From Curtobacterium sp. ZW137 (GTDB lineage Bacteria; Actinomycetota; Actinomycetes; Actinomycetales; Microbacteriaceae), in contig NZ_RJKS01000001.1 in the NCBI RefSeq assembly GCF_003762905.1, positions 868,001-932,000 on the forward strand: a stretch of 64,000 nucleotides of DNA, in the 5' to 3' direction. This document shows positions 10,675-24,781 of the stretch, one piece after another. The position numbers and the translations under genes were made by a program. How positions within the stretch are numbered: the stretch's first letter is position 1; each line of letters begins with the position of its first letter. The notes beneath the pieces were generated by a model. The model did no database searches, was not told the origin of the DNA, and saw only the letters and a list, made by a program, of their open reading frames with translations.

Positions 10675-11982
10675 TCAGGCGCCGACGACGCGGAGCACGC
10701 TGGCGACGTCGGTGACGACGTCCTCTCCGCGGAGGGACACCACGGTGTCGGCGAGGTCCGATTCGCGGGCTTCGTGCGTGCCGATCACCAGGGTGGCGGT
10801 GCCGCCGACCCCGTGTGCGCTCGACTGCTCGACGGTCTCGACGCTGACGCCGTGCTTCGCCAGGATGCCCGCGACGGTGGACAGCACGCCGGGGGCGTCC
10901 GTCACGTGCAGGGTGATCTGGTAGCTGGTCCGGACCGTGCCGATCGGGAAGACGGGCAGGTCGGACCGGGTCGACTCGGCGATGCCGGGGCCGCCGATCA
11001 CGTGCCGGCGGGCGGCCGAGACCAGGTCGCCGAGGACCGCGGAGGCCGTCTCGACCCCGCCGGCTCCGGCGCCGTAGAACATCAGGTCGCCGGCCGCTTC
11101 GGCTTCGACGAAGACGGCGTTCTTGGCGCCGTGGACGCTGGCGAGCGGGTGCGACTCCGGGACGAGGGCCGGGTAGACGCGGGCGCTCACGCCTTCGCGC
11201 CCGTTCTCGTCGGTGAGGCGCTCGCACGTCGCGAGGATCTTCACGACGTAGCCGGCCTTCCGCGCCGCGCGGACCTGCTCGATGGTGACCGAGGTGATGC
11301 CCTCACGGTGCACGGCGGCGAGCGGCACCGAGGTGTGGAACGCGATCGAGGCCAGGATCGCCGCCTTCTGCGCGGCGTCGTAGCCCTCGATGTCGGCGGT
11401 CGGGTCGGCCTCGGCGTACCCGAGCTCCGTCGCGGTGGCGAGGGCGTCGTCGAACGTGGCGCCTTCGCGGTCCATCAGGTCGAGGATGAAGTTCGTGGTG
11501 CCGTTGACGATGCCCATGATCCGCACGATGCGGTCACCGGCGAGGGAGTCGTGCAGCGGCCGGATGATCGGGATCGCCCCGGCGACGGCTGCCTCGTAGT
11601 AGAGCTGCGCGCCGACCTGCTCCGCCGCGGCGAAGAGCTCGGGGCCGTGCGTGGCGAGGAGTGCCTTGTTGCCGGTGACGACGTCGGCGCCGGACTGCAG
11701 GGCCTGGAGCACGAGGGTGCGCGCCGGCTCGATGCCGCCGATGAGCTCGACGACGATGTCCGCGCCGAGGATCAGCGACGCAGCGTCCGTCGTGAACAGC
11801 TCGCGCGGCAGGTCGACGTCCCGCTCGGCGTCGACGTCACGGACGGCGATCCCCACGAGTTCGAGGCCGGCGCCGGCACGCGAGGCCAGCTCGTCACCGT
11901 GTTCGAGCAGGAGTCGCGCGACCTGCGAGCCGACCGAGCCGGCTCCGAGCAGCGCGACGCGGACGTTGCGGTATTCGATCAT
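10675..11982 (-). CDS. hom: Homoserine dehydrogenase with C-terminal ACT domain
   Basis: Reduces aspartate semialdehyde to homoserine, the branch point of threonine and methionine synthesis. NAD(P)-binding [17 protein letters not shown] is at residues 9-25. The catalytic domain contains [14 protein letters not shown] and the conserved lysine in HGAKNAVF near 290. A C-terminal ACT domain (from about residue 340, [16 protein letters not shown]) should give threonine feedback control. The ATG at 11982 gives the usual [11 protein letters not shown] start, with GGAG 11 nt upstream. An in-frame GTG at 12015 overlapping the lysA stop is an alternative, adding 11 residues. Directly downstream of lysA. 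Confidence 0.95.
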
Positions 11983-12011
11983 GTGGTGCGTGTCTCCGGG
12001 ATCTCGGGGGC

Positions 12012-13451
12012 TCACCGCGCGGCACCGGCAGCGGCCACGGGCGACACCCCGGTGTCGCGGGCGAGGAGGTCGTCGACCGTCTCACCACGGACGAGGATAC
12101 GTGCTCGGCCGTCGGCGACCGCGACGACCGGCGGACGACCGACGTGGTTGTAGTTGCTCGCGAGGCTCCAGCAGTAGGCACCGGTCGCCGCGACGGCCAG
12201 GAGGTCCCCGCGGTGCACGTCCCCGGGCAGGTACTCGTCGTGGACGACGATGTCGCCGCTCTCGCAGTGCTTCCCGACGACCCGGCTCAGGACCGCCGGT
12301 GCGTCCGAGGTCCGGGCGAGCCGTGCCGTGTACTCGGCGCCGTACAGCGCCGGGCGGGCGTTGTCGCTCATCCCGCCGTCGACCGAGACGTACGTGCGGG
12401 TGGCGCTGCCGCCGTCGGCAGCGCCGTCGGTGTCCGTCGTCTCGAGCGTGACGGGCTTGATCGTGCCGACCCGGTAGAGCGTGATGCCGGCCGGCCCGAC
12501 GATGTACCGCCCGGGCTCCACCGCGACGTCCGGCACCGGGATGCCGCGCTCGGCGCAGGCGTCGGCGACGATGGTCGCGAGGGCGTCGGCGACGTCTTCG
12601 GGTTCGAACGCGGAGTCGGCTTCGGTGTAGTCGATGCCCCAGCCACCGCCGAGGTTGAGTTCCGGCACCGGCCCGGACTGCACGAGCGTGGCGTGCACGT
12701 CCATCAGGCGACGCGCGGCTTCACGGAACCCGGACTCGTCGAAGATCTGCGAACCGATGTGCGAGTGCAGCCCGACGAAGGCGAGCGACGGCCGGGACCG
12801 GATGGTCTCCGCAGCGTCCACCGCTTCCGTCAGGGGGATGCCGAACTTCTGGTCTTCGCGCGCGGTCGCCAGGTACTCGTGCGTCGAGGCGTGCACCCCG
12901 CTGTTGATCCGGATGCGGACGCGCTGCACGACACCGGCCGCCGCTGCGGCGTCGGCGACACGGTCGATCTCTTCGTGGGAGTCGAGGACGATCGTGCCGA
13001 CCCCGACCTGCACCGCGCGGGCGATCTCGGCGTCGGACTTGTCGTTGCCGTGGAACCCGAGCCGGCCGGGGTCGACGCCGCCGGCCAGGGCGACCGCGAG
13101 TTCACCGCCGGTGCAGACGTCGACACGGAGGTCCGCTTCGGCCATCCACGCCGCGACCTGGGTGGTGAGGAACGCCTTGCCGGCGTAGTAGACGTGGGCG
13201 TGCGCGCCGATGCGGCCGAACGCTTCGCTGAAGGCGTTGCGCACGCGGACGGCGCGGGACTGCACGTCCCGCTCGTCGACCACGTACAGCGGCGTGCCGA
13301 ACTGCGCGACGAGGTCGGATGCGGCGACACCGCCGATCGCGAGCGAGCCGTCGTCGGTGCGCGTCGCGGAGGCGGGCCAGATCCGCGCGGTCAGCGCGGA
13401 GGCGTCCGTCGGGAACCGCAGCCGCGGCGGGGCAAGTGGGTTCTCGCTCAC
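12012..13451 (-). CDS. lysA: Diaminopimelate decarboxylase
   Basis: Fold-type III PLP enzyme that decarboxylates meso-diaminopimelate to lysine. The PLP lysine is in YYAGKAFLT near residue 90. GLHSHIGSQ near 210, the phosphate-binding LNLGGGWGIDY near 255, EPGRYIVG near 310 and the dimer-interface CESGDIV are all typical. Length 479. GTG at 13451 gives VSENPLAPPRLRFP, and TAGGAT lies 8 nt upstream, a -10 box suited to a leaderless message. Lysine made here could also feed the Pls-type synthetase at 18563 if that enzyme uses lysine; this link is speculative. Confidence 0.96.
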   Translation of the reverse strand: MSENPLAPPRLRFPTDASALTARIWPASATRTDDGSLAIGGVAASDLVAQFGTPLYVVDERDVQSRAVRVRNAFSEAFGRIGAHAHVYYAGKAFLTTQVAAWMAEADLRVDVCTGGELAVALAGGVDPGRLGFHGNDKSDAEIARAVQVGVGTIVLDSHEEIDRVADAAAAAGVVQRVRIRINSGVHASTHEYLATAREDQKFGIPLTEAVDAAETIRSRPSLAFVGLHSHIGSQIFDESGFREAARRLMDVHATLVQSGPVPELNLGGGWGIDYTEADSAFEPEDVADALATIVADACAERGIPVPDVAVEPGRYIVGPAGITLYRVGTIKPVTLETTDTDGAADGGSATRTYVSVDGGMSDNARPALYGAEYTARLARTSDAPAVLSRVVGKHCESGDIVVHDEYLPGDVHRGDLLAVAATGAYCWSLASNYNHVGRPPVVAVADGRARILVRGETVDDLLARDTGVSPVAAAGAAR

Positions 13452-13459
13452 GGGACCCG

Positions 13460-13465
13460 ATCCTA
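13460..13465 (-). promoter_or_regulatory. -10 element of lysA (leaderless type)
   Basis: TAGGAT on the minus strand, ending 8 nt before the GTG start of lysA. Matches TANNNT at the spacing expected if transcription starts on the start codon. Confidence 0.5.
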
Positions 13466-13514
13466 CCGAGCCGGGCCCGGCCTCCCGTCCGGTGTTACGC
13501 ACGCTGTGGAGAAG

Positions 13515-14595: not shown

Positions 14596-16260
14596 CTACA
14601 TGCGCTCGGGCGCGCTCACCCCGAGCAGCCCGAGGCCGTTCCGCACGACCTGGCCGGTGGCGTCGTTCAGCCACAGGCGCGTGCGGTGCAGGTCGGTCAC
14701 GGTCTCGTCGCCGAGCGGGGTCACCCGGCAGGCGTCGTACCAGCGGTGGTACAGGCCCGCGAGCTGCTCGATGTAGCGCGCGATGCGGTGCGGCTCGCGG
14801 AGTTCGGCGGCCTGCCGGACTACGCGCGGGTACTCCGCCAGGGCCCCGAGCAGCGCGCCCTCGGTGTCGTGGGTGAGCAGCGACGCGTCGAACGCCGAGC
14901 GGTCCACACCCGAGGCCGCGGCGTTCCGCGCGACCGACTGCGTGCGGGCGTGGGCGTACTGGACGTAGAACACCGGGTTGTCGTTGGTGCGCTTGGTCAG
15001 CAGGTCGAGGTCGATGTCGATCGCGGTGTCGCTGGCGAACCGGACGAGCGAGTAGCGGCCCGCGTCGACACCCACGGCGTCGACGAGGTCCTCCATCGTG
15101 ACGATCGTGCCCGCACGCTTCGACATGCGCATCGGCTCGCCGTCCTTGAGCAGGTTGACCATCTGGCCGATCAGGATCTCGAGGTTCTTGCCCGGCTCGT
15201 CCCCGAACGCGGCGCACATCGCCATCATCCGGCCGACGTAGCCGTGGTGGTCGGCACCGAGCATGATCAGGTTCCGCTCGAACCCGCGCTCGCGCTTGTC
15301 GAGGTAGTACGCCAGGTCGCCGGCGATGTACGCGGGCTCCCCGTCGGACTTGATGACGACGCGGTCCCGGTCGTCACCGAACTCGGTCGTGCGGAGCCAC
15401 TGCGCACCCTCGGCCTCGTACATGTGCCCGTTGGCGCGGAGCCGCTCGATGGCGCGCTCGACGGCCTTCGACTCGTGCAGCGCGTTCTCGTGGAAGTAGA
15501 CGTCGAAGTCGACGCCGAACTCGTGCAGCGACTGCTTGATGTCGGCGAACATGAAGTCGACGCCCTCGCGCCGGAACAGCTCCTGCGCCTCGTCGCGGGG
15601 CAGGTCGCGCACGTCCCCGTCGAAGGTCGACAGCACCCGGGCCGCGATCTCGGCGATGTACGCGCCGCCGTAGCCGTCCTCCGGCGTGGGCTCCCCCAGC
15701 GCGGAGGCGACGAGCGACCGGGCGAACCGGTCGATCTGGCTGCCGTGGTCGTTGAAGTAGTACTCCCGCGTGACGAGGCCACCCTGCGCCTGGAACACGC
15801 GGGCGAGGCTGTCGCCCACCGCGGCCCAGCGGACGCCGCCCATGTGGATCGGGCCGGTCGGGTTCGCGGACACGAACTCGAGGTCGATGCGCACGCCGTC
15901 GTAGAGGTCGCCGTGCCCGAAGGTCTCGCCGTTCTCCACGATGGTGCGGGCGATCTCGCCGGCAGCAGCCGCCTCGAGCGTGATGTTGATGAAGCCGGGG
16001 CCGGCGACGTCGACGGTGTCCACGCCGTCGAGCTCGGTCAGCTCGCCGGCGATCTCCGTCGCGAGTTCGCGTGGGTTGGTCCCGAGGCGCTTCGCGAGCT
16101 GCATGGCGGCGTTCGAGGCCCAGTCCCCGTGTGCCCGGTTCTTCGGGCGTTCGAGGGCGACGTGCGACTCCTCGACGGTCACGGTGTCGGACGCGCCTCG
16201 GCGCTCGACGATCCCGGTCAGGATCGACAGGTACGCGGCGGAGAGTTCGGCAGGAGTCAC
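14596..16260 (-). CDS. argS: Arginyl-tRNA synthetase
   Basis: Class I synthetase charging tRNA-Arg. 554 residues. The N-terminal tRNA D-loop recognition domain covers about residues 1-95. The HIGH-type signature is [15 protein letters not shown] near 138 (HMGG variant), the KMSKS-like loop is MRMSKRAGT near 380, and the C-terminal anticodon domain ends the protein. The conserved ADHHGYVGR segment is near 340. GTG start at 16260 is supported by TAGACT 8 nt upstream; a longer N-terminus would run into the 21-bp repeats. A tRNA-Arg(CCG) gene lies about 1 kb away on the other strand. Confidence 0.97.
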
Positions 16261-16268
16261 GGCGGACG

Positions 16269-16274
16269 AGTCTA
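16269..16274 (-). promoter_or_regulatory. -10 element of argS (leaderless type)
   Basis: TAGACT on the minus strand, 8 nt before the argS GTG. Near-consensus -10 hexamer with no room for a ribosome-binding site. Confidence 0.55.
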
Positions 16275-16290
16275 CCGGGCGTGGCGCCGA

Positions 16291-16340
16291 CACCCGTTGC
16301 ACACGCGACGGCACCCGTTGCACACGCGACGGCACCCTTC
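16291..16340. repeat. 21-bp tandem repeat in the argS/lipoprotein divergent region
   Basis: Two exact copies of a 21-bp unit starting CACCCGTTGCACACGCGACG (16291-16311 and 16312-16332) and the start of a third. They lie just upstream of the argS -10, so they may be binding sites or simple slippage repeats. Confidence 0.6.
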
Positions 16341-16372
16341 GCTCACACGGACGCATGCAGCATCATGGCCGC

Positions 16373-17187: not shown

Positions 17188-17259
17188 GCCCCCATAGCTC
17201 AGGGGATAGAGCACTGCCCTCCGGAGGCAGGGGCGGAGGTTCGAATCCTCCTGGGGGCA
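17188..17259 (+). tRNA. tRNA-Arg, anticodon CCG (decodes CGG)
   Basis: Full cloverleaf: acceptor stem GCCCCCA/TGGGGGC, D stem GCTC/GAGC, anticodon stem CTGCC/GGCAG around loop CTCCGGA (anticodon CCG at 17221-17223), variable loop of 4 nt, and T stem GGAGG/CCTCC with loop TTCGAAT. Discriminator base A; CCA is not encoded. 72 nt. It follows the lipoprotein terminator, and no inserted element was found at its 3' end. Confidence 0.97.
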
Positions 17260-17340
17260 CTGTCACATTTCCGCGGAAGCTGTGGTCTTCGCTTCGCTCA
17301 GTCCGCAGCCCGCGATGTCGCGGCAGGCCGCGACTGATCC

Positions 17341-17463
17341 CCCGTGGTTCGTTCCGACAAGCGCGCTGCGGCCCGTGGTTCGTTCCGACAGGCGCGCGGC
17401 GGGTCCGTGTTCGTTCCGACAAGCGCGCTGCGGTCCGTGGTTCGTTCCGGCAGGTGCGGCGGG
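17341..17463. repeat. four ~31-bp tandem repeats between tRNA-Arg and the Gfo/Idh gene
   Basis: Units start at 17341, 17372, 17404 and 17434. Each contains a GTTCGTTCC(G)ACA-type core and a GCGC-rich tail, with about 80-90 percent identity. They end 20 nt before the ATG at 17484. The core word TTCCGACA also opens the 71-bp repeats at 38595. Confidence 0.65.
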
Positions 17464-17483
17464 TCCGTCGGTAGGTTCGGGGG

Positions 17484-18562: not shown

Positions 18563-21500
18563 ATGACGCTCGCCACCGGGAACCCGCAGACCGAGCTGGC
18601 ACGCGGCACGCTCGCACCGCCGGCGCGCACGCTGCTCGACGTCCTCCGGGCGACCGCGGATGCGCACCCGACCGCGCTCGCGCTCGAGGACCCCGACGGC
18701 GCGATCGACTACCGGACGCTGCTGCGGCTCGTGCAGGAGCGCGCCGACGACCTCGCCCGGCGGGGTGTGCGACGCGGCGACCGCGTGGGGATCCGGATCC
18801 CGTCCGGCGGGCGCGACCTGTACCTGTCCGTCCTCGCGGTCCTGGCGGCCGGCGCGGCGTACGTGCCCGTCGACGCGGACGACCCGGAGGAGCGCGCGAC
18901 GCTCGTCTTCGGGGAGGCCGGGGTCGTCGGCGTGATCGGCGCCGGCGGCGTGCTGCACGGGGACGCCGCCGACGGGGTGCCCGGCGTGCCCGCTCCGGTC
19001 GTCGACCCCGCGGCGATCGCCGACGGACCGGACGTGGCCGACGACGCATGGGTGATCTTCACCTCCGGCTCGACGGGCGTGCCCAAGGGCGTCGCGGTGA
19101 CGCACCGTTCCGCTGCGGCGTTCGTCGACGCCGAGGCGCGGATGTTCCTGCAGCGGGCGCCGATCGGCCCGGGTGACCGGGTGCTCGCCGGGCTCAGCGT
19201 CGCGTTCGACGCGTCCTGTGAGGAGATGTGGCTCGCGTGGGGGCACGGCGCGTGTCTGGTGCCGGCTCCGCGCTCCCTGGTGCGGACGGGCGTGGACCTC
19301 GGGCCGTGGCTGATCGTGCACGGCATCACGGTGGTGTCGACGGTCCCGACGCTCGCGGCGCTGTGGCCGGACGACGCGCTGGAGCAGGTCCGGCTGGTGG
19401 TCTTCGGTGGTGAGGCGTGTCCGCCCGAGCTCGCGGCCCGGATCGCGAGTCGGGACCGGGAGGTCTGGAACACGTACGGGCCGACGGAGGCGACGGTCGT
19501 GGCGTGCGGTTCGCTGCTGGACTGCAGCGTGCCGATCCGGATCGGGCTGCCGCTGGACGGCTGGGACCTCGCGGTGGTCGACGCCGCGGGTGCGCGGGTG
19601 GCGCCGGGTGCGGTCGGGGAGCTCGTCATCGGCGGGGTGGGGCTCGGGCGGTACCTCGACCCGGCGAAGGACGCGGAGAAGTACGCCCCCTTCCCGGAGC
19701 TCGGGTGGGAGCGGGCATACCGGAGTGGTGACCTGGTGCGGTACGACCCGGAGGGGCTGGTGTTCCAGGGTCGGGCGGACGACCAGGTGAAGCTCGGTGG
19801 GCGGCGGATCGAGCTGGGGGAGATCGACGCGGCGCTCCAGGCGCTCGACGACGTCGCCGGTGGGGCTGCCGTGGTGCAGCGGACGCCGGCGGGGAATCAG
19901 GTGCTCGTCGGGTACGTCGCTCCCGTCGCGGGTGCGGTCGTGGACGCGGCGGCGGCCAACGCCCGGCTGCGGGAGGAGCTGCCGGCGGCGCTGGTGCCGC
20001 TCCTCGTGGTGGTGGACACCCTGCCGACGCGGACGTCGGGCAAGGTGGACCGGGCGGCGCTCCCGTGGCCGCTGGGTGCAGCGGGTGGAGGGGACGAGTT
20101 CTCGCTCCCTCCCACCGTCGCGTGGATCGCCGAACGGTGGGCCGCGATCCTCGGCATCCCCCCGACGAGCGTCGACGACGACTTCTTCGCGCACGGTGGC
20201 GGCTCCCTGACGGCGGCGCAGCTCGTCTCGGCGATCCGCGAGCGCTACCCCACCACGACGGTGGCGGACGTCTACGACCACCCGCGCATCGGGGCGCTCG
20301 CGGACGCGCTGGACGCGTCGGGCCCGGTCGCCGCCGCGCACCGTGACGTCCGGCCGACCCCGCCGGCGACGGGGATCGCGCTGACGCTCCTCGGGCTGCC
20401 GGTCCAGGTGCTCCGCGGCCTCCGGGTCCTGACGTGGACGGCCCTCGTGGCAGCGGTCCTGCACGCGACCACCCTGCCGTTCCTCCCGGTGCTGCCGTGG
20501 CCGGTCCTCGTCGCCGCGGTGCTGGTCTTCGTGACGCCCGTGGGCAAGATGGCCGTCACGGTGGCGCTCGCCCGCCTGGTGCTCCTCGGCGTCCGGCCGG
20601 GCGACCACCCGCGGGGCGGTTCGGTGCACGTGCGGGTGTGGCTCGCGGAACGGATCGCCGAGGCGGTCGACGGGCCCTCCACCGCGGGTGCCCCGTGGAT
20701 CAGCTACTACGCCAGGGCGCTCGGGGCGCGGATCGGCCGGGACGTCGACCTGCACACGCTGCCGCCGGTCACCGGGATGCTGACGATCGGCCGGCGCGCG
20801 TCGATCGAGCCCGAGGTGGACCTCGCCGGGCACTGGGTGGACGGAGACGTGTTCCGGCTCGGCCGCGTCGTCGTCGGGTCGGACGCGGTGGTGCACAGCC
20901 GCACGACGGTCATGCCCGGGGCGGTCGTCGGCGCGGGTGCCGAGGTCGAGGCGGGCTCCGCCGTCCAGGGCCGGGTCCCGGTGGGCGAGCGCTGGGCTGG
21001 TTCGCCGGCGGAACGCGTCGGGTCGGCCAGGCACGGCCGGGAGGCTCGCCCCGCGTCACGTCGACGCTGGCTCGCCGCGTACGGGGCCGGGTCCGTCGCC
21101 GTGGCCGGGTTGCCCGTGACCGGTGTCGCGGTCGGACTCCTCGTGACCGCTGCGCTGGTCGGGCGGGCGCCGACGCTCGGCGCCGCGGTGCTGCACGCGC
21201 TGGCACTCGTCCCGCTCGCGACCGTCGTCGCCGGGATCGTCTACGCGGGGCTCGTCGTCGCCGCGGTCCGGCTGCTCGGGATCGGGCTGCACGAGGGACG
21301 GCACCCGGTGCGTTCCCGGATCGGCTGGCAGGCGTGGTGCACCGAACGGGTGCTCGACGCCGCGCGCACACTGCTCTTCCCGCTCTACGCGAGCCTCGTC
21401 ACCCCGGTGTGGCTCCGGCTCCTCGGGGCACGGGTCGGGCGGAACACCGAGATCTCGACGGTGCTGCTGCTGCCGTCCCTGACGCAGATCGCGTCCGGTG

Positions 21501-22504
21501 CGTTCCTCGCCGACGACACGATGGTCGCCACGTACGAACTCGGCGGCGGCCGCATCACGATCGGCCGGTCCAAGGTGGGTCGCCGTGCGTTCCTCGGGAA
21601 CAGCGGGATGACCGGCGCCGGGCGGAGCGTCCCGCGTGAGGCGCTCGTCGCGGTGCTCTCCGCCGTCCCGAAGAAGGCCAAGCGCGGCTCGTCGTGGCTC
21701 GGCTCTCCCCCGGTGCGGCTCCGACGCGCGGCGACGTCCTTCGACGAGGAGCGCACGTTCCGTCCTCCGCGGCGGCTCCGGGTGGCGCGCGGCTGCTGGG
21801 AGGTCCTCCGCGTGGTCGCGCCGATGGTGTCCGGGGCGATCGCCCTCGGGGTCGGCGGCACGCTCCTGGCGCTCTGGTCGGCGGTCGGCATCGGGTGGAC
21901 GGTGCTCCTCGCCGCGGTCGTCCTCGTCGTCGCCGGCGCCGTGGCCGCCGCCGTGTCGACGATCGCGAAGTGGGTGTTCGTCGGTCGGATCCGCGCACGG
22001 GAGCACCCGCTGTGGTCCTCGTTCGTCTGGCGCAACGAGGTGCAGGACACGTTCGTGGAGACCGTCGCGCGTCCGTGGTTCGCGGAGCAGGCCATCGGCA
22101 CGCCGGCGCTCGCCGCCTGGTTGCGGAGCCTCGGCGCGACGATCGGCCGCGGCGTCTGGTGCGAGACGTACTGGCTGCCAGAGGCCGACCTGGTCACGAT
22201 CGGCGACGGCGCCACCATCGCACGCGGCACGGTCGTGCAGACGCACCTGTTCCACGACCGGGTGATGCAGCTCGACGAGGTCCGGCTGGATGCCGGCGGC
22301 ACCCTCGGACCGCACAGCGTGATCCTGCCGGCCGCCGGGATCGGCCCGGGGGCGACGATCGCACCCGCGTCGCTCGTGATGCGCGGCGAGCAGGTCCCGG
22401 GCGGCACGTCCTGGGCGGGCAACCCGATCGCACCGTGGGAGAGCGCACCCTGGACAGCCAGGGCCGCGTCCACGGACCCGACCGCCGGCGTCGTGGCAGA
22501 CTGA
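18563..22504 (+). CDS. Pls-type non-ribosomal peptide synthetase (poly-amino-acid synthetase family)
   Basis: 1313 residues, close to the roughly 1319 of epsilon-poly-L-lysine synthetase, with the same architecture. The adenylation domain (20-500) has TSGSTGVPKG near 167, FDASCEEMW near 214, NTYGPTE near 302, YRSGDL near 386 and TSGKVDR near 490. The thiolation domain has the phosphopantetheine serine in FFAHGGGSL near 546. After it come three repeats of a two-helix membrane segment plus a left-handed beta-helix/acetyltransferase-like domain (about 613-820, 845-1050 and 1080-1300). There is no thioesterase or classical condensation domain. Manual pocket residues read D-A-E-S-V-G-T-V-V; the glutamate suits a cationic amino acid. 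ATG with AGAGGA upstream. The next gene is an M1 peptidase, then a PPTase. The product is not proven to be poly-lysine. Confidence 0.88.
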   Translation: MTLATGNPQTELARGTLAPPARTLLDVLRATADAHPTALALEDPDGAIDYRTLLRLVQERADDLARRGVRRGDRVGIRIPSGGRDLYLSVLAVLAAGAAYVPVDADDPEERATLVFGEAGVVGVIGAGGVLHGDAADGVPGVPAPVVDPAAIADGPDVADDAWVIFTSGSTGVPKGVAVTHRSAAAFVDAEARMFLQRAPIGPGDRVLAGLSVAFDASCEEMWLAWGHGACLVPAPRSLVRTGVDLGPWLIVHGITVVSTVPTLAALWPDDALEQVRLVVFGGEACPPELAARIASRDREVWNTYGPTEATVVACGSLLDCSVPIRIGLPLDGWDLAVVDAAGARVAPGAVGELVIGGVGLGRYLDPAKDAEKYAPFPELGWERAYRSGDLVRYDPEGLVFQGRADDQVKLGGRRIELGEIDAALQALDDVAGGAAVVQRTPAGNQVLVGYVAPVAGAVVDAAAANARLREELPAALVPLLVVVDTLPTRTSGKVDRAALPWPLGAAGGGDEFSLPPTVAWIAERWAAILGIPPTSVDDDFFAHGGGSLTAAQLVSAIRERYPTTTVADVYDHPRIGALADALDASGPVAAAHRDVRPTPPATGIALTLLGLPVQVLRGLRVLTWTALVAAVLHATTLPFLPVLPWPVLVAAVLVFVTPVGKMAVTVALARLVLLGVRPGDHPRGGSVHVRVWLAERIAEAVDGPSTAGAPWISYYARALGARIGRDVDLHTLPPVTGMLTIGRRASIEPEVDLAGHWVDGDVFRLGRVVVGSDAVVHSRTTVMPGAVVGAGAEVEAGSAVQGRVPVGERWAGSPAERVGSARHGREARPASRRRWLAAYGAGSVAVAGLPVTGVAVGLLVTAALVGRAPTLGAAVLHALALVPLATVVAGIVYAGLVVAAVRLLGIGLHEGRHPVRSRIGWQAWCTERVLDAARTLLFPLYASLVTPVWLRLLGARVGRNTEISTVLLLPSLTQIASGAFLADDTMVATYELGGGRITIGRSKVGRRAFLGNSGMTGAGRSVPREALVAVLSAVPKKAKRGSSWLGSPPVRLRRAATSFDEERTFRPPRRLRVARGCWEVLRVVAPMVSGAIALGVGGTLLALWSAVGIGWTVLLAAVVLVVAGAVAAAVSTIAKWVFVGRIRAREHPLWSSFVWRNEVQDTFVETVARPWFAEQAIGTPALAAWLRSLGATIGRGVWCETYWLPEADLVTIGDGATIARGTVVQTHLFHDRVMQLDEVRLDAGGTLGPHSVILPAAGIGPGATIAPASLVMRGEQVPGGTSWAGNPIAPWESAPWTARAASTDPTAGVVAD

Positions 22505-22512
22505 CCGGCACC

Positions 22513-23829
22513 GTGAAGCCGACGAACACAGCCGCCGACCCGTACACCCCGCACAGCGGCGACCGACGCTGGAGCGCCACGCACTACGACCTCCGGCTCG
22601 ACTACCGCGTCGCCACGAACCGCCTCGACGGCACCGCGACGATCACCGCGACCGCGCTCGAACCGCTCGACCGTGTGGTCCTCGACCTGCACGGGCTGAC
22701 GGTCGACCGGGCCGACGTCGACGGGCAGCGGGCGAAGAAGACGTCGACCGCGGTGCACAAGCTGACGGTCACCCCGGCGGAACCGATCGCCGCCGGTGCC
22801 GAGTTCACGCTGCACGTCCGGTACCGCGGGACCCCGCACCCACTCCGCAGCCCGTGGGGGCAGATCGGCTGGGAGGAACTCACCGACGGCGTCATCGTCG
22901 CCGCGCAGCCCACGGGAGCGCCGTCGTGGTTCCCGTGCAACGACCGTCCGGACGACAAGGCCACGTACCGCATGGAGGTCACGTGCGAGTCCGGGTACGA
23001 CGTGCTGGCGAACGGAGAGCTCCTCGGCCAAGAGCGCGCCGGCCGCGGCACCCGGTGGACCTACGCCACGACCGACCCGATGGCGACGTACCTGGCGACG
23101 GTGCAGATCGGCCGCTACCGCACCCACACGCTCCGTGGCGCGCCGGTCCCGGTGACGATCCACCACCCCGCCGACCTGACCGCCGCCGTGAAGACGGACT
23201 TCGGGCAGGTGCCGGAGATGCTCGCGCTGTACGCCGACCGGTTCGGCCCGTACCCGTTCCACGCCTACGGCGTCGTGGTGACCGACGACGAACTCGAGAT
23301 CCCGCTCGAGGCGCACGGCCTCGCGGTCTTCGGCCGGAACCACGTCGACGGCGAGCACGGCACCGACCGGCTCATCGCCCACGAGCTCGCGCACCAGTGG
23401 TTCGGCAACTCGGTCACGCTCGGCCGCTGGCGGGACATCTGGCTGCACGAGGGGTTCGCCTGCTACGCCGAGTGGCTCTGGTCGGAGCACAGTGGCGGCG
23501 ACACCGCGGACGTGCTCGCGGCCGAGCACCGTCAGGCGCTGCTCGACCACCCGTCGGACCTGGTGGTCGGTGACCCCGGCGCGAAGGACATGTTCGACGA
23601 CCGCGTGTACAAGCGCGGTGCCCTCGCCCTGCACGCACTCCGCCGGACGGTCGGCGACCCGGCGTTCTCCGAGGGGCTCAGGACGATCACCGAACGGCAC
23701 CGGCACGGCACGGTCACCCCGTCCGACGTCGTCGACGCCTTCGCCACCACGTCGGGCCGGAGCACGGCCGCCATCCAGACGGTCATCGGCCCCTGGATCG
23801 ACGAGTCCGGGGTCCCGGAACTCCCCTAG
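22513..23829 (+). CDS. M1-family zinc metallopeptidase (aminopeptidase)
   Basis: 438 residues, the short M1 form with the N-terminal beta-saddle and catalytic domains and no long C-terminal helical domain. The zinc site is HELAHQW near residue 288, followed after exactly 18 residues by the third ligand in WLHEGFA. The exopeptidase GxMEN loop is replaced by IPLEAHG, so specificity may differ from ordinary PepN. No signal peptide. GTG start 8 nt after the synthetase stop, so it is surely co-transcribed. In poly-lysine producers zinc aminopeptidases degrade the polymer; trimming or self-protection is my inference here. It ends tail-to-tail with the PPTase, sharing a CTAG. Confidence 0.88.
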   Translation: MKPTNTAADPYTPHSGDRRWSATHYDLRLDYRVATNRLDGTATITATALEPLDRVVLDLHGLTVDRADVDGQRAKKTSTAVHKLTVTPAEPIAAGAEFTLHVRYRGTPHPLRSPWGQIGWEELTDGVIVAAQPTGAPSWFPCNDRPDDKATYRMEVTCESGYDVLANGELLGQERAGRGTRWTYATTDPMATYLATVQIGRYRTHTLRGAPVPVTIHHPADLTAAVKTDFGQVPEMLALYADRFGPYPFHAYGVVVTDDELEIPLEAHGLAVFGRNHVDGEHGTDRLIAHELAHQWFGNSVTLGRWRDIWLHEGFACYAEWLWSEHSGGDTADVLAAEHRQALLDHPSDLVVGDPGAKDMFDDRVYKRGALALHALRRTVGDPAFSEGLRTITERHRHGTVTPSDVVDAFATTSGRSTAAIQTVIGPWIDESGVPELP

Positions 23830-24425
23830 CGCCGGTCCCCCGGGCGCGCGTCCTCGACGTCGATCGGGACGCCGCCCGCGGCCACCGCGAGGACCAGGTC
23901 GTCGTCGAGCCAGTGCACCTGCACGGGGTGTCGCACGCCGTCGAGTGCTGCCGTGCCCGCGGCGAGGTCCGCGTCGAGGTCCACGTCGACGGTCGCCGGG
24001 TCGACGCGGAGCCCGCGGCCGTCCCGCTTCAGCACCGCTTCCTTGGCGGACCAGCAGGCGGTGCGGGCGCGCTGGTCGTCCCCGTACCGCACGCGCTCCC
24101 CGGGCGTGGACGCGTCGAGGGGTGCCGCGGCGACCCGGGTGACGCGCTCGACGTCGACGCCGAGCGGAGCCGGTCCCACCGCGAGGGCGAGTGCGCCGTC
24201 GGTGCGGGACAGGCTCACGCCCACGGGGCGGCCGTCCGCGGTCGCCCAGGGGCGCCCGTGGTCGGTGCCGCGGCAGTGCGGGCACCGGCGGCCGAGTGCG
24301 GTGGACGCGGGATCCGCTCCGGTGACCTCCGCGACGAAGGCGAGCAGGGCCTCCCGGTCGGTCTGTCGGGTCGCGCCCGGCGTGCACACGCGCACCGACA
24401 CGGCCTGGAGGCTCGACTCACCCAC
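23826..24425 (-). CDS. 4'-phosphopantetheinyl transferase (Sfp type)
   Basis: Transfers phosphopantetheine from CoA to carrier-protein serines. The 199-residue protein has the magnesium-binding GVDVERV near residue 88 and the WSAKEAVLK motif near 125, typical of Sfp/EntD enzymes. An unusual CPHCRGTDHGRP segment near 48 resembles the P0 region with an added CxxC. The obvious local substrate is the carrier domain of the synthetase at 18563. It is convergent with the peptidase gene, and the two stop codons overlap in one CTAG. GTG start has TAGGGT 6 nt upstream, so it has its own leaderless-type promoter. Confidence 0.87.
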   Translation of the reverse strand: MGESSLQAVSVRVCTPGATRQTDREALLAFVAEVTGADPASTALGRRCPHCRGTDHGRPWATADGRPVGVSLSRTDGALALAVGPAPLGVDVERVTRVAAAPLDASTPGERVRYGDDQRARTACWSAKEAVLKRDGRGLRVDPATVDVDLDADLAAGTAALDGVRHPVQVHWLDDDLVLAVAAGGVPIDVEDARPGDRR

Positions 24426-24508: not shown

Positions 24509-24537
24509 GTGTGGTGAGCGGCATGCTCGAGCGTGGG

Positions 24538-24588
24538 TCGTGCTCAGGCGTGCGTCGTGCTCAGGCGTGCGTGGTGCTCAGGCGTGCG
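24538..24588. repeat. three 17-bp tandem repeats at the 3' end of a small gene
   Basis: Unit TCGTGCTCAGGCGTGCG occurs at 24538-24554, 24555-24571 and 24572-24588 (one change in the last). The innermost copy covers the last codons and stop of the gene at 24578, so the gene end was apparently amplified by slippage. Confidence 0.75.
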
Positions 24589-24781
24589 TCAGCGCGATCA
24601 GTGCCACGTTCATCGTCGAGTAGAGACCCTCGGACCGGGTCGCCTGGCGCACGCGGCCGCGCAGGACCTCGTAGCGGCCGTTGTGCTCGCGCACGAAACC
24701 GATCACTCCGCTGGCGGGTGTTGACACCCGGTGGAAGCCGTCCTCGAGCGGGACGACCTCCGTGTTCATCGTTCGTTCCAT
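24578..24781 (-). CDS. Small uncharacterised protein (67 residues)
   Basis: I do not recognise this family. The product is 67 residues, soluble, without a signal peptide or cysteines; its middle, GVIGFVREHNGRYEVLRGR, looks like a small beta-rich domain. ATG at 24781 has AAGGGG 6 nt upstream, a good ribosome site; a second ATG at 24769 is less well placed. It is divergent from the TPM-protein gene across a 211-bp gap. The last codons lie in a 17-bp tandem repeat, and a hairpin follows. It is likely a real gene given the ribosome site. Confidence 0.6.
   Translation of the reverse strand: MERTMNTEVVPLEDGFHRVSTPASGVIGFVREHNGRYEVLRGRVRQATRSEGLYSTMNVALIALTHA

Follow-up and report, generated by a model that had tools for sequence, protein, structure and literature searches.

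A probable epsilon-poly-L-lysine locus in Curtobacterium: a Pls/PosA-family synthetase, its M1 peptidase partner and a linked phosphopantetheinyl transferase

The stretch of DNA analysed here (the window) is 64,000 nucleotides of Curtobacterium sp. ZW137 (contig NZ_RJKS01000001.1, positions 868,001 to 932,000). Three adjacent genes in it encode one large synthetase (pls), one M1 zinc peptidase and one phosphopantetheinyl transferase (PPTase). What polymer does the synthetase make, and do the two neighbours belong to the same pathway? Based on sequence comparisons, we consider it highly probable that the pls synthetase, its conserved M1 partner and the neighbouring PPTase together produce, activate and degrade epsilon-poly-L-lysine. 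The initial annotation had proposed that the locus makes a cationic polymer, activates its carrier and trims or degrades the product; this view appears to hold and can be narrowed to lysine. The parts of the locus, in window positions, are:

18563..22504, + strand: pls, Pls/PosA-family synthetase, 1313 residues, one open reading frame
18647..20062, + strand: adenylation (A) domain, about residues 29-500 (PF00501, match to 7wew, pocket columns)
20123..20311, + strand: thiolation (T, carrier) domain, residues 521-583 (PF00550)
20204-20206, + strand: codon of the phosphopantetheine serine Ser548, which is Ser in 77 of 77 aligned rows
20384..22429, + strand: C-terminal polymerisation region, residues 608-1289, three units (TIGR02353 stretch, hydrophobic stretches, AlphaFold2 model)
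22238..22258, + strand: candidate active-site motif Q1226-T-H1228-L-F-H1231-D1232 in unit 3 (column conservation)
22513..23829, + strand: M1 zinc peptidase, PldII-like partner, 438 residues (PF17900 and PF01433)
23826..24425, - strand: PPTase, 199 residues (PF01648)

By family match, the window protein is a Pls/PosA-family synthetase, with A and T domains, an intact phosphopantetheine serine and, by prediction, three membrane/beta-helix units. It scored 685 bits against the NCBIfam model TIGR02353 'Pls/PosA family NRPS' (nonribosomal peptide synthetase; cut-off 423.1). The match spans residues 608-1289 and covers profile positions 4-695 of 695, the whole terminal domain; the AMP-binding and PP-binding domains precede it. 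No condensation or thioesterase family was among the four Pfam matches of the protein. The closest PDB sequence to the A domain is 7wew, an epsilon-poly-L-lysine synthase (633 bits; the next is 408.6 bits). When the ratio of nonsynonymous to synonymous differences (pN/pS) was computed against eight Curtobacterium relatives, pls gave 0.21-0.32, a range that suggests purifying selection, while M1 gave 0.29-0.54 and the PPTase 0.45-0.73. The match of the A domain to 7wew and this apparent selection on pls speak against a chance family match. The C-terminal region contains hydrophobic stretches at residues 626-677, 841-910 and 1081-1141, as seen in one 19-residue hydropathy look whose lenient cut also flags four A-domain stretches. 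The AlphaFold2 model of residues 598-1313 (predicted local distance difference test score 82.9, predicted template modelling score 0.87) fits three membrane/left-handed beta-helix units, and its closest structural matches are hexapeptide acetyltransferases. The initial annotation had described this synthetase layout without thioesterase, an M1 zinc peptidase 8 nucleotides downstream and a tail-to-tail PPTase, and the family searches and coordinates bear out all of it.

The substrate pocket, taken from alignment columns, is composed of Asp216, Ala217, Glu220, Ser259, Val280, Gly282, Thr304, Val312, Val313 and Lys494 (DAESVGTVVK); the earlier reading by eye, D-A-E-S-V-G-T-V-V, was exact. All 76 readable relatives carry DAESIGTVVK (76 of the 80 fetched; L014, L033, L057 and L061 were left out owing to stops in the crude frame call), and the A-domain alignment, read by eye, gives DAESIGTVV for the 7wew pocket. 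Compared to the Stachelhaus code of the lysine enzyme, nine of ten positions are identical, with one V for I. Also by eye, one 92%-identical Curtobacterium homologue (P0006) has Ile at position 280, and one near-identical database entry (P0005) has Val. According to the passages of PMC10522769 cited here, Glu221 of PosA, the equivalent of the window pocket Glu, contacts the side-chain amine of the substrate, and PosA Asn280, at the position of Val280, makes no substrate contact; Ala at pocket position 2 is a mark of lysine enzymes. Because the pocket is one conservative change from DAESIGTVVK and has Ala at position 2, the A domain is predicted to use lysine, and the product is likely to be epsilon-poly-L-lysine.

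The M1 gene begins with GTG at 22513, leaving a gap of 8 nucleotides (22505-22512) after pls. Its product carries the zinc site HEXXH-X18-E, with HELAH at residues 290-294 (His290, Glu291, His294) and Glu313; the PF01433 match is 103.9 bits. In all of the 80 named loci, one M1 homologue lies downstream of pls on the same strand. In 76 loci it is no more than 250 nucleotides from where the pls alignment ends, and in four (L021, L031, L034 and L035) the distance is 0.6-2.2 kb. These are the best 80 loci by likeness to the window Pls, and the set favours the lysine branch because it was picked in this way. By operon position, with its 8-nucleotide gap and its downstream placement in 80/80 loci, the M1 protein is likely a PldII-like partner of Pls. 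Since it has no 19-residue stretch of mean hydropathy above 1.4, it is probably cytosolic, with no apparent signal peptide or membrane anchor. This absence is claimed for the window protein only; in a simple look at the N-termini of 80 relatives, which depends on the start chosen, hydropathy peaks within the first 60 residues are as high as 2.04.

Sfp-type PPTases are about 200 residues in size and carry GxDxE and WxxKEA motifs. The window PPTase, which by size and motif we take to be of this type, is 199 residues long, with GVDVE at 89 and KEA at 128 (WSAKEA); it reached none of the NCBIfam models. The gene is convergent with M1, and at their stop codons the two genes share 4 nucleotides. Among the Curtobacterium genomes that are near-complete (at least 90% complete, n = 62), the locus PPTase finds a match in 55 of the 57 that carry pls; G022 (many contigs, pls near one contig end) and G040 show none. 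Four of the five near-complete genomes without pls have no PPTase match, and the fifth, G061, has only one 61-residue remnant at the expected place. The chance of such a split was calculated by hand as about 3e-6, with shared ancestry ignored. A profile built from the loci placed a PPTase about 2 kb or less from pls-M1 in 32 of the 80 named loci. All of these are among the 36 Micrococcales loci (in L075 it is on the other strand), and the remaining 44, which include two unassigned actinobacteria, have 0; the grouping of genera into orders is ours. The co-occurrence with pls suggests a dedicated role for the PPTase, and the 'dedicated-looking' of the initial annotation gains support from it. 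The linked PPTase also suggests itself as the partner for expression of active carrier protein in other hosts.

The genome contains three PF01648 proteins. Besides the locus PPTase, there is one short AcpS-type protein, next to genes that look by eye like alr and glmS, and there is a second protein that is AcpS-like. The second AcpS-like PPTase (L084:1008-1923, - strand) adjoins one small carrier-protein-like protein (by eye), possibly of a separate pathway, and G040 (L140) has another PF01648 protein at G040:C31:285537. We also considered a different client for the locus PPTase. A second NRPS-like protein of 923 residues, probably adenylation-thiolation-thioesterase (A-T-TE) in layout, is encoded at L141:3994-6765 (G000 C2:27996-30761) and has matches in 47 of the 66 Curtobacterium genomes. 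The A-T-TE gene is missing (E <= 1e-150) from 15 of the 62 near-complete genomes, 14 of which keep the locus-PPTase match; conversely, four of the five near-complete genomes without pls keep the A-T-TE gene, with at most one PPTase remnant. The A-T-TE gene was rejected as the main PPTase client, since the PPTase tracks pls instead, although it could be a second client.

Do the genes also come and go together? Among the 66 Curtobacterium genomes, pls exceeds the TIGR02353 cut-off in 59, M1 is present in exactly those 59, and both are missing from the same seven; 62 of the 66 are near-complete, and pls is present in 57 of these. Among 299 Microbacteriaceae genomes, pls was found in 117, M1 in 118 and both in 116, and the two agree in 296. 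The three mismatches are G280, with pls only (82% complete, pls cut short), and two with M1 only, G340 (39% identical, probably one paralogue) and G353 (46%). The presence of pls in 57/62 near-complete Curtobacterium genomes argues for a steady role of the polymer, not for that of a sporadic antibiotic. In the genus, the pls block lies between one tRNA gene and one TPM-domain gene:

17188..17260, + strand: tRNA-Arg(CCG), which borders the pls block on the left across the genus (ARAGORN)

All nine named Curtobacterium loci contain this tRNA, L005 in inverted orientation, and eight of the nine contain the TPM gene; the same tRNA-Arg(CCG) occurs in L135-L140, emptied sites included. In G023, G043, G044, G010 and G061, both borders are kept and pls and M1 are gone between them; no TPM match was found in G002. 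The G061 site reads tRNA-Arg, one helix-turn-helix gene and one methionine-aminopeptidase-like gene (both by eye), the PPTase remnant and TPM. Because this remnant stands at an emptied site between kept borders, the G061 site points to loss rather than to a block that was never present. The near-complete genomes without pls (G002, G023, G043, G044 and G061, the last four with emptied sites) provide natural null species within the genus.

How would the three proteins act together? The PPTase would load phosphopantetheine onto Ser548 of the carrier domain. The A domain would activate L-lysine, with Glu220 toward the side-chain amine, as judged from homology and the PosA structures, and the lysyl-thioester would pass to the membrane-embedded C-terminal region. 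There, the epsilon-amine of one lysine is predicted to attack the thioester of the next; unit 3, near His1228, is the most likely site. Because the M1 protein has no apparent signal peptide, it would act inside the cell, on polymer left there, for self-protection or length control.

Pls enzymes join lysine through its side chain without a condensation domain, and at the time of PMC10522769 the C-terminal domain was without structural information, as stated there. Across the 28 covering rows from diverse loci, Gln1226, His1228 and Asp1232 are identical in 28/28, and residue 1231 is His in 22 rows and Glu in the other 6, giving the motif Q-x-H-x-x-H/E-D; His1228 is the sole invariant histidine of the C-terminal region. 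In the closer rows, Gln1226, His1228, His1231 and Asp1232 are all identical (77/77). This motif is a candidate for the condensation site and supplies residues for point mutants. A second candidate residue is Asp984 of unit 2, invariant in 27/27 covering rows. His757 of unit 1 was rejected as the catalytic base; its column varies (H, Y, W and others). A PDB search for an experimental structure of the C-terminal region yielded only weak hexapeptide matches, and the residue alignment does not assign His1228 or His1231 to one catalytic or metal-binding His. Divergent TIGR02353-like proteins of other actinobacteria (L148 and L167-L170; 24-37% identical) have QxHSQED in unit 3 instead of QTHLFHD.

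As a wider scheme, which we put forward tentatively and at somewhat less than even chances, the C-terminal region of Pls would be a hexapeptide acyltransferase fused into a pseudo-trimer, in which unit 3 alone still works as an active site and uses the invariant motif with His1228 for the isopeptide condensation, whereas units 1 and 2 would now guide the substrate and serve as scaffold; in Micrococcales, the synthetase, one cytosolic degrading peptidase and its own PPTase would form a self-contained three-gene cassette, which in Curtobacterium would belong to the core genome and disappear as a unit.

Several observations weigh against a working epsilon-poly-L-lysine pathway of all three genes. 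The window is the sole sequence with Val280 among the 77 pocket rows. G040 has pls and M1 and no match to the locus PPTase, and the PPTase copy of G016 is split over two frames; among ten PPTase matches with flagged stops, the aligned core is stop-free in the other nine. Four of the 36 Micrococcales loci, L049 among them, show no PPTase nearby, nor do any of the 44 other loci. L036 and L049 end 53 and 523 nucleotides past M1, so that neither could show it. PldII is described in PMC9223678 as an enzyme outside the membrane, coupled to pls, in contrast to the probably cytosolic window M1. Finally, as reported in PMC8117764, no polymer could be detected from Corynebacterium variabile itself, and C. 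glutamicum expressing its gene made the protein but no polymer; therefore, the window locus could be silent or need special conditions. A silent or decayed locus, with no product in this strain, is nevertheless unlikely. In the cultures tried in PMC8117764, the Pls protein of C. variabile indeed went undetected in that species itself, but the window has one open 1313-codon frame under purifying selection, with Ser548 and the unit-3 motif intact, in a genus that mostly keeps pls.

It is quite unlikely that the synthetase makes another cationic isopeptide (delta-polyornithine, gamma-poly-diaminobutyrate, beta-poly-diaminopropionate or poly-beta-lysine) or one mixed polymer. Family members do vary in substrate (PMC10522769), and position 280 is Val, not Ile; however, the PosA code is DMEHNGTVSK and the diaminopropionate/diaminobutyrate enzymes carry Phe at position 2, according to the same source, compared to Ala in the window. 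The other nine pocket positions are the same as in the 76 relatives, and no family for diaminobutyrate or diaminopropionate biosynthesis was found among the 10 neighbouring proteins scanned. Very unlikely, in our view, is that M1 and the PPTase are ordinary housekeeping neighbours and pls stands alone in the pathway. Both belong to common families, and the PPTase, with its looser pN/pS, does not lie beside pls in the 44 loci from outside Micrococcales. Against this, pls and M1 agree in 66/66 genus and 296/299 family genomes, and the PPTase is missing or one remnant in all five near-complete genomes without pls, though four of these keep the other NRPS-like gene.

The surroundings of the locus show further features. 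Within 8 kb upstream of pls lie, all on the - strand, hom (homoserine dehydrogenase, 10675-12015), lysA (diaminopimelate-decarboxylase-like, 12012-13502) and argS (arginyl-tRNA synthetase, 14596-16356). In the fetched flanks (E <= 1e-20), argS is near pls in 9/9 Curtobacterium loci and lysA in 7/9; Plantibacter L023 has both around pls, inverted, and the other 70 loci have neither. A link of lysA, hom and argS to pls through lysine supply was set aside; these neighbours probably reflect position only. Several near-identical copies of one unit of about 30 nucleotides (ttcgttccgacaagcgcgctgcgg...) lie at 17340-17470, between the tRNA-Arg and one GFO/IDH gene. At 24515-24590, about three copies of one unit of about 17 nucleotides (gcgtgcgtcgtgctcag) stand directly before one small minus-strand open reading frame, which also occurs in some emptied sites. 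Helix-turn-helix and methionine-aminopeptidase-like genes (by eye; L003:14254-15340, L139:200-1293, L135 and L140) lie between M1 and the PPTase in some Curtobacterium and persist in some emptied sites; they are not in the window. The neighbouring TPM gene has pN/pS of 0.36-0.49 (seven comparisons).

Among known structures, 6a8z and 6iff, small M1 zinc metalloproteases of Deinococcus radiodurans, share the two-domain M1 fold and the HELAHQWFG motif with the window M1, although the alignment with 6a8z gives only 199 bits. Streptomyces albulus Pls, whose A domain is 7wew, resembles the window protein in its A-T and terminal regions, in one pocket that differs at one conservative position, and in the same-strand peptidase gene directly downstream; in S. 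albulus, however, pldII overlaps pls by 4 bp (PMC4361855), compared to the 8-nucleotide gap and the convergent PPTase gene here. PosA, the delta-poly-L-ornithine synthetase of Acinetobacter baumannii, has the same architecture, keeps the pocket Asp and Glu and shows three beta-helices in its modelled C-terminus, but differs in its ornithine pocket, and its A core is 36% identical to Pls (PMC10522769). As described in PMC8117764, Pls occurs in coryneform genera including Microbacterium, Arthrobacter and Corynebacterium, in one operon with a PldII-homologous peptidase and with lysine-type pockets. The C. variabile operon has the same order, pls then peptidase, and its pls homologue gave epsilon-polylysine in Streptomyces coelicolor, the published proof for one coryneform Pls; it differs from the window in bacterial order, and the Results and Discussion of that paper mention no PPTase. 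The epsilon-polylysine clusters of Agrococcus, Microbacterium and Leifsonia (PMC12067966) and of Plantibacter (PMC13188922) come from the same bacterial family and have the same synthetase layout, but they were obtained by genome mining, and the passages concerned do not name Curtobacterium as carrier. Non-alpha poly-amino acid clusters were reported in one set that includes one Curtobacterium, without assignment to genus members in the cited part of PMC10456417. The initial annotation had called such a locus little studied, which is true in part, given the published Pls and PldII-type operon and the Microbacteriaceae clusters. The cited passages of these papers hold no statement on PPTase linkage, block co-loss or a unit-3 active site. 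Compared to the Pls family and the pls-peptidase operon already published in coryneform bacteria, the additions made here are modest: one PPTase that appears to travel with pls, the apparent loss of the block, and the candidate unit-3 motif.

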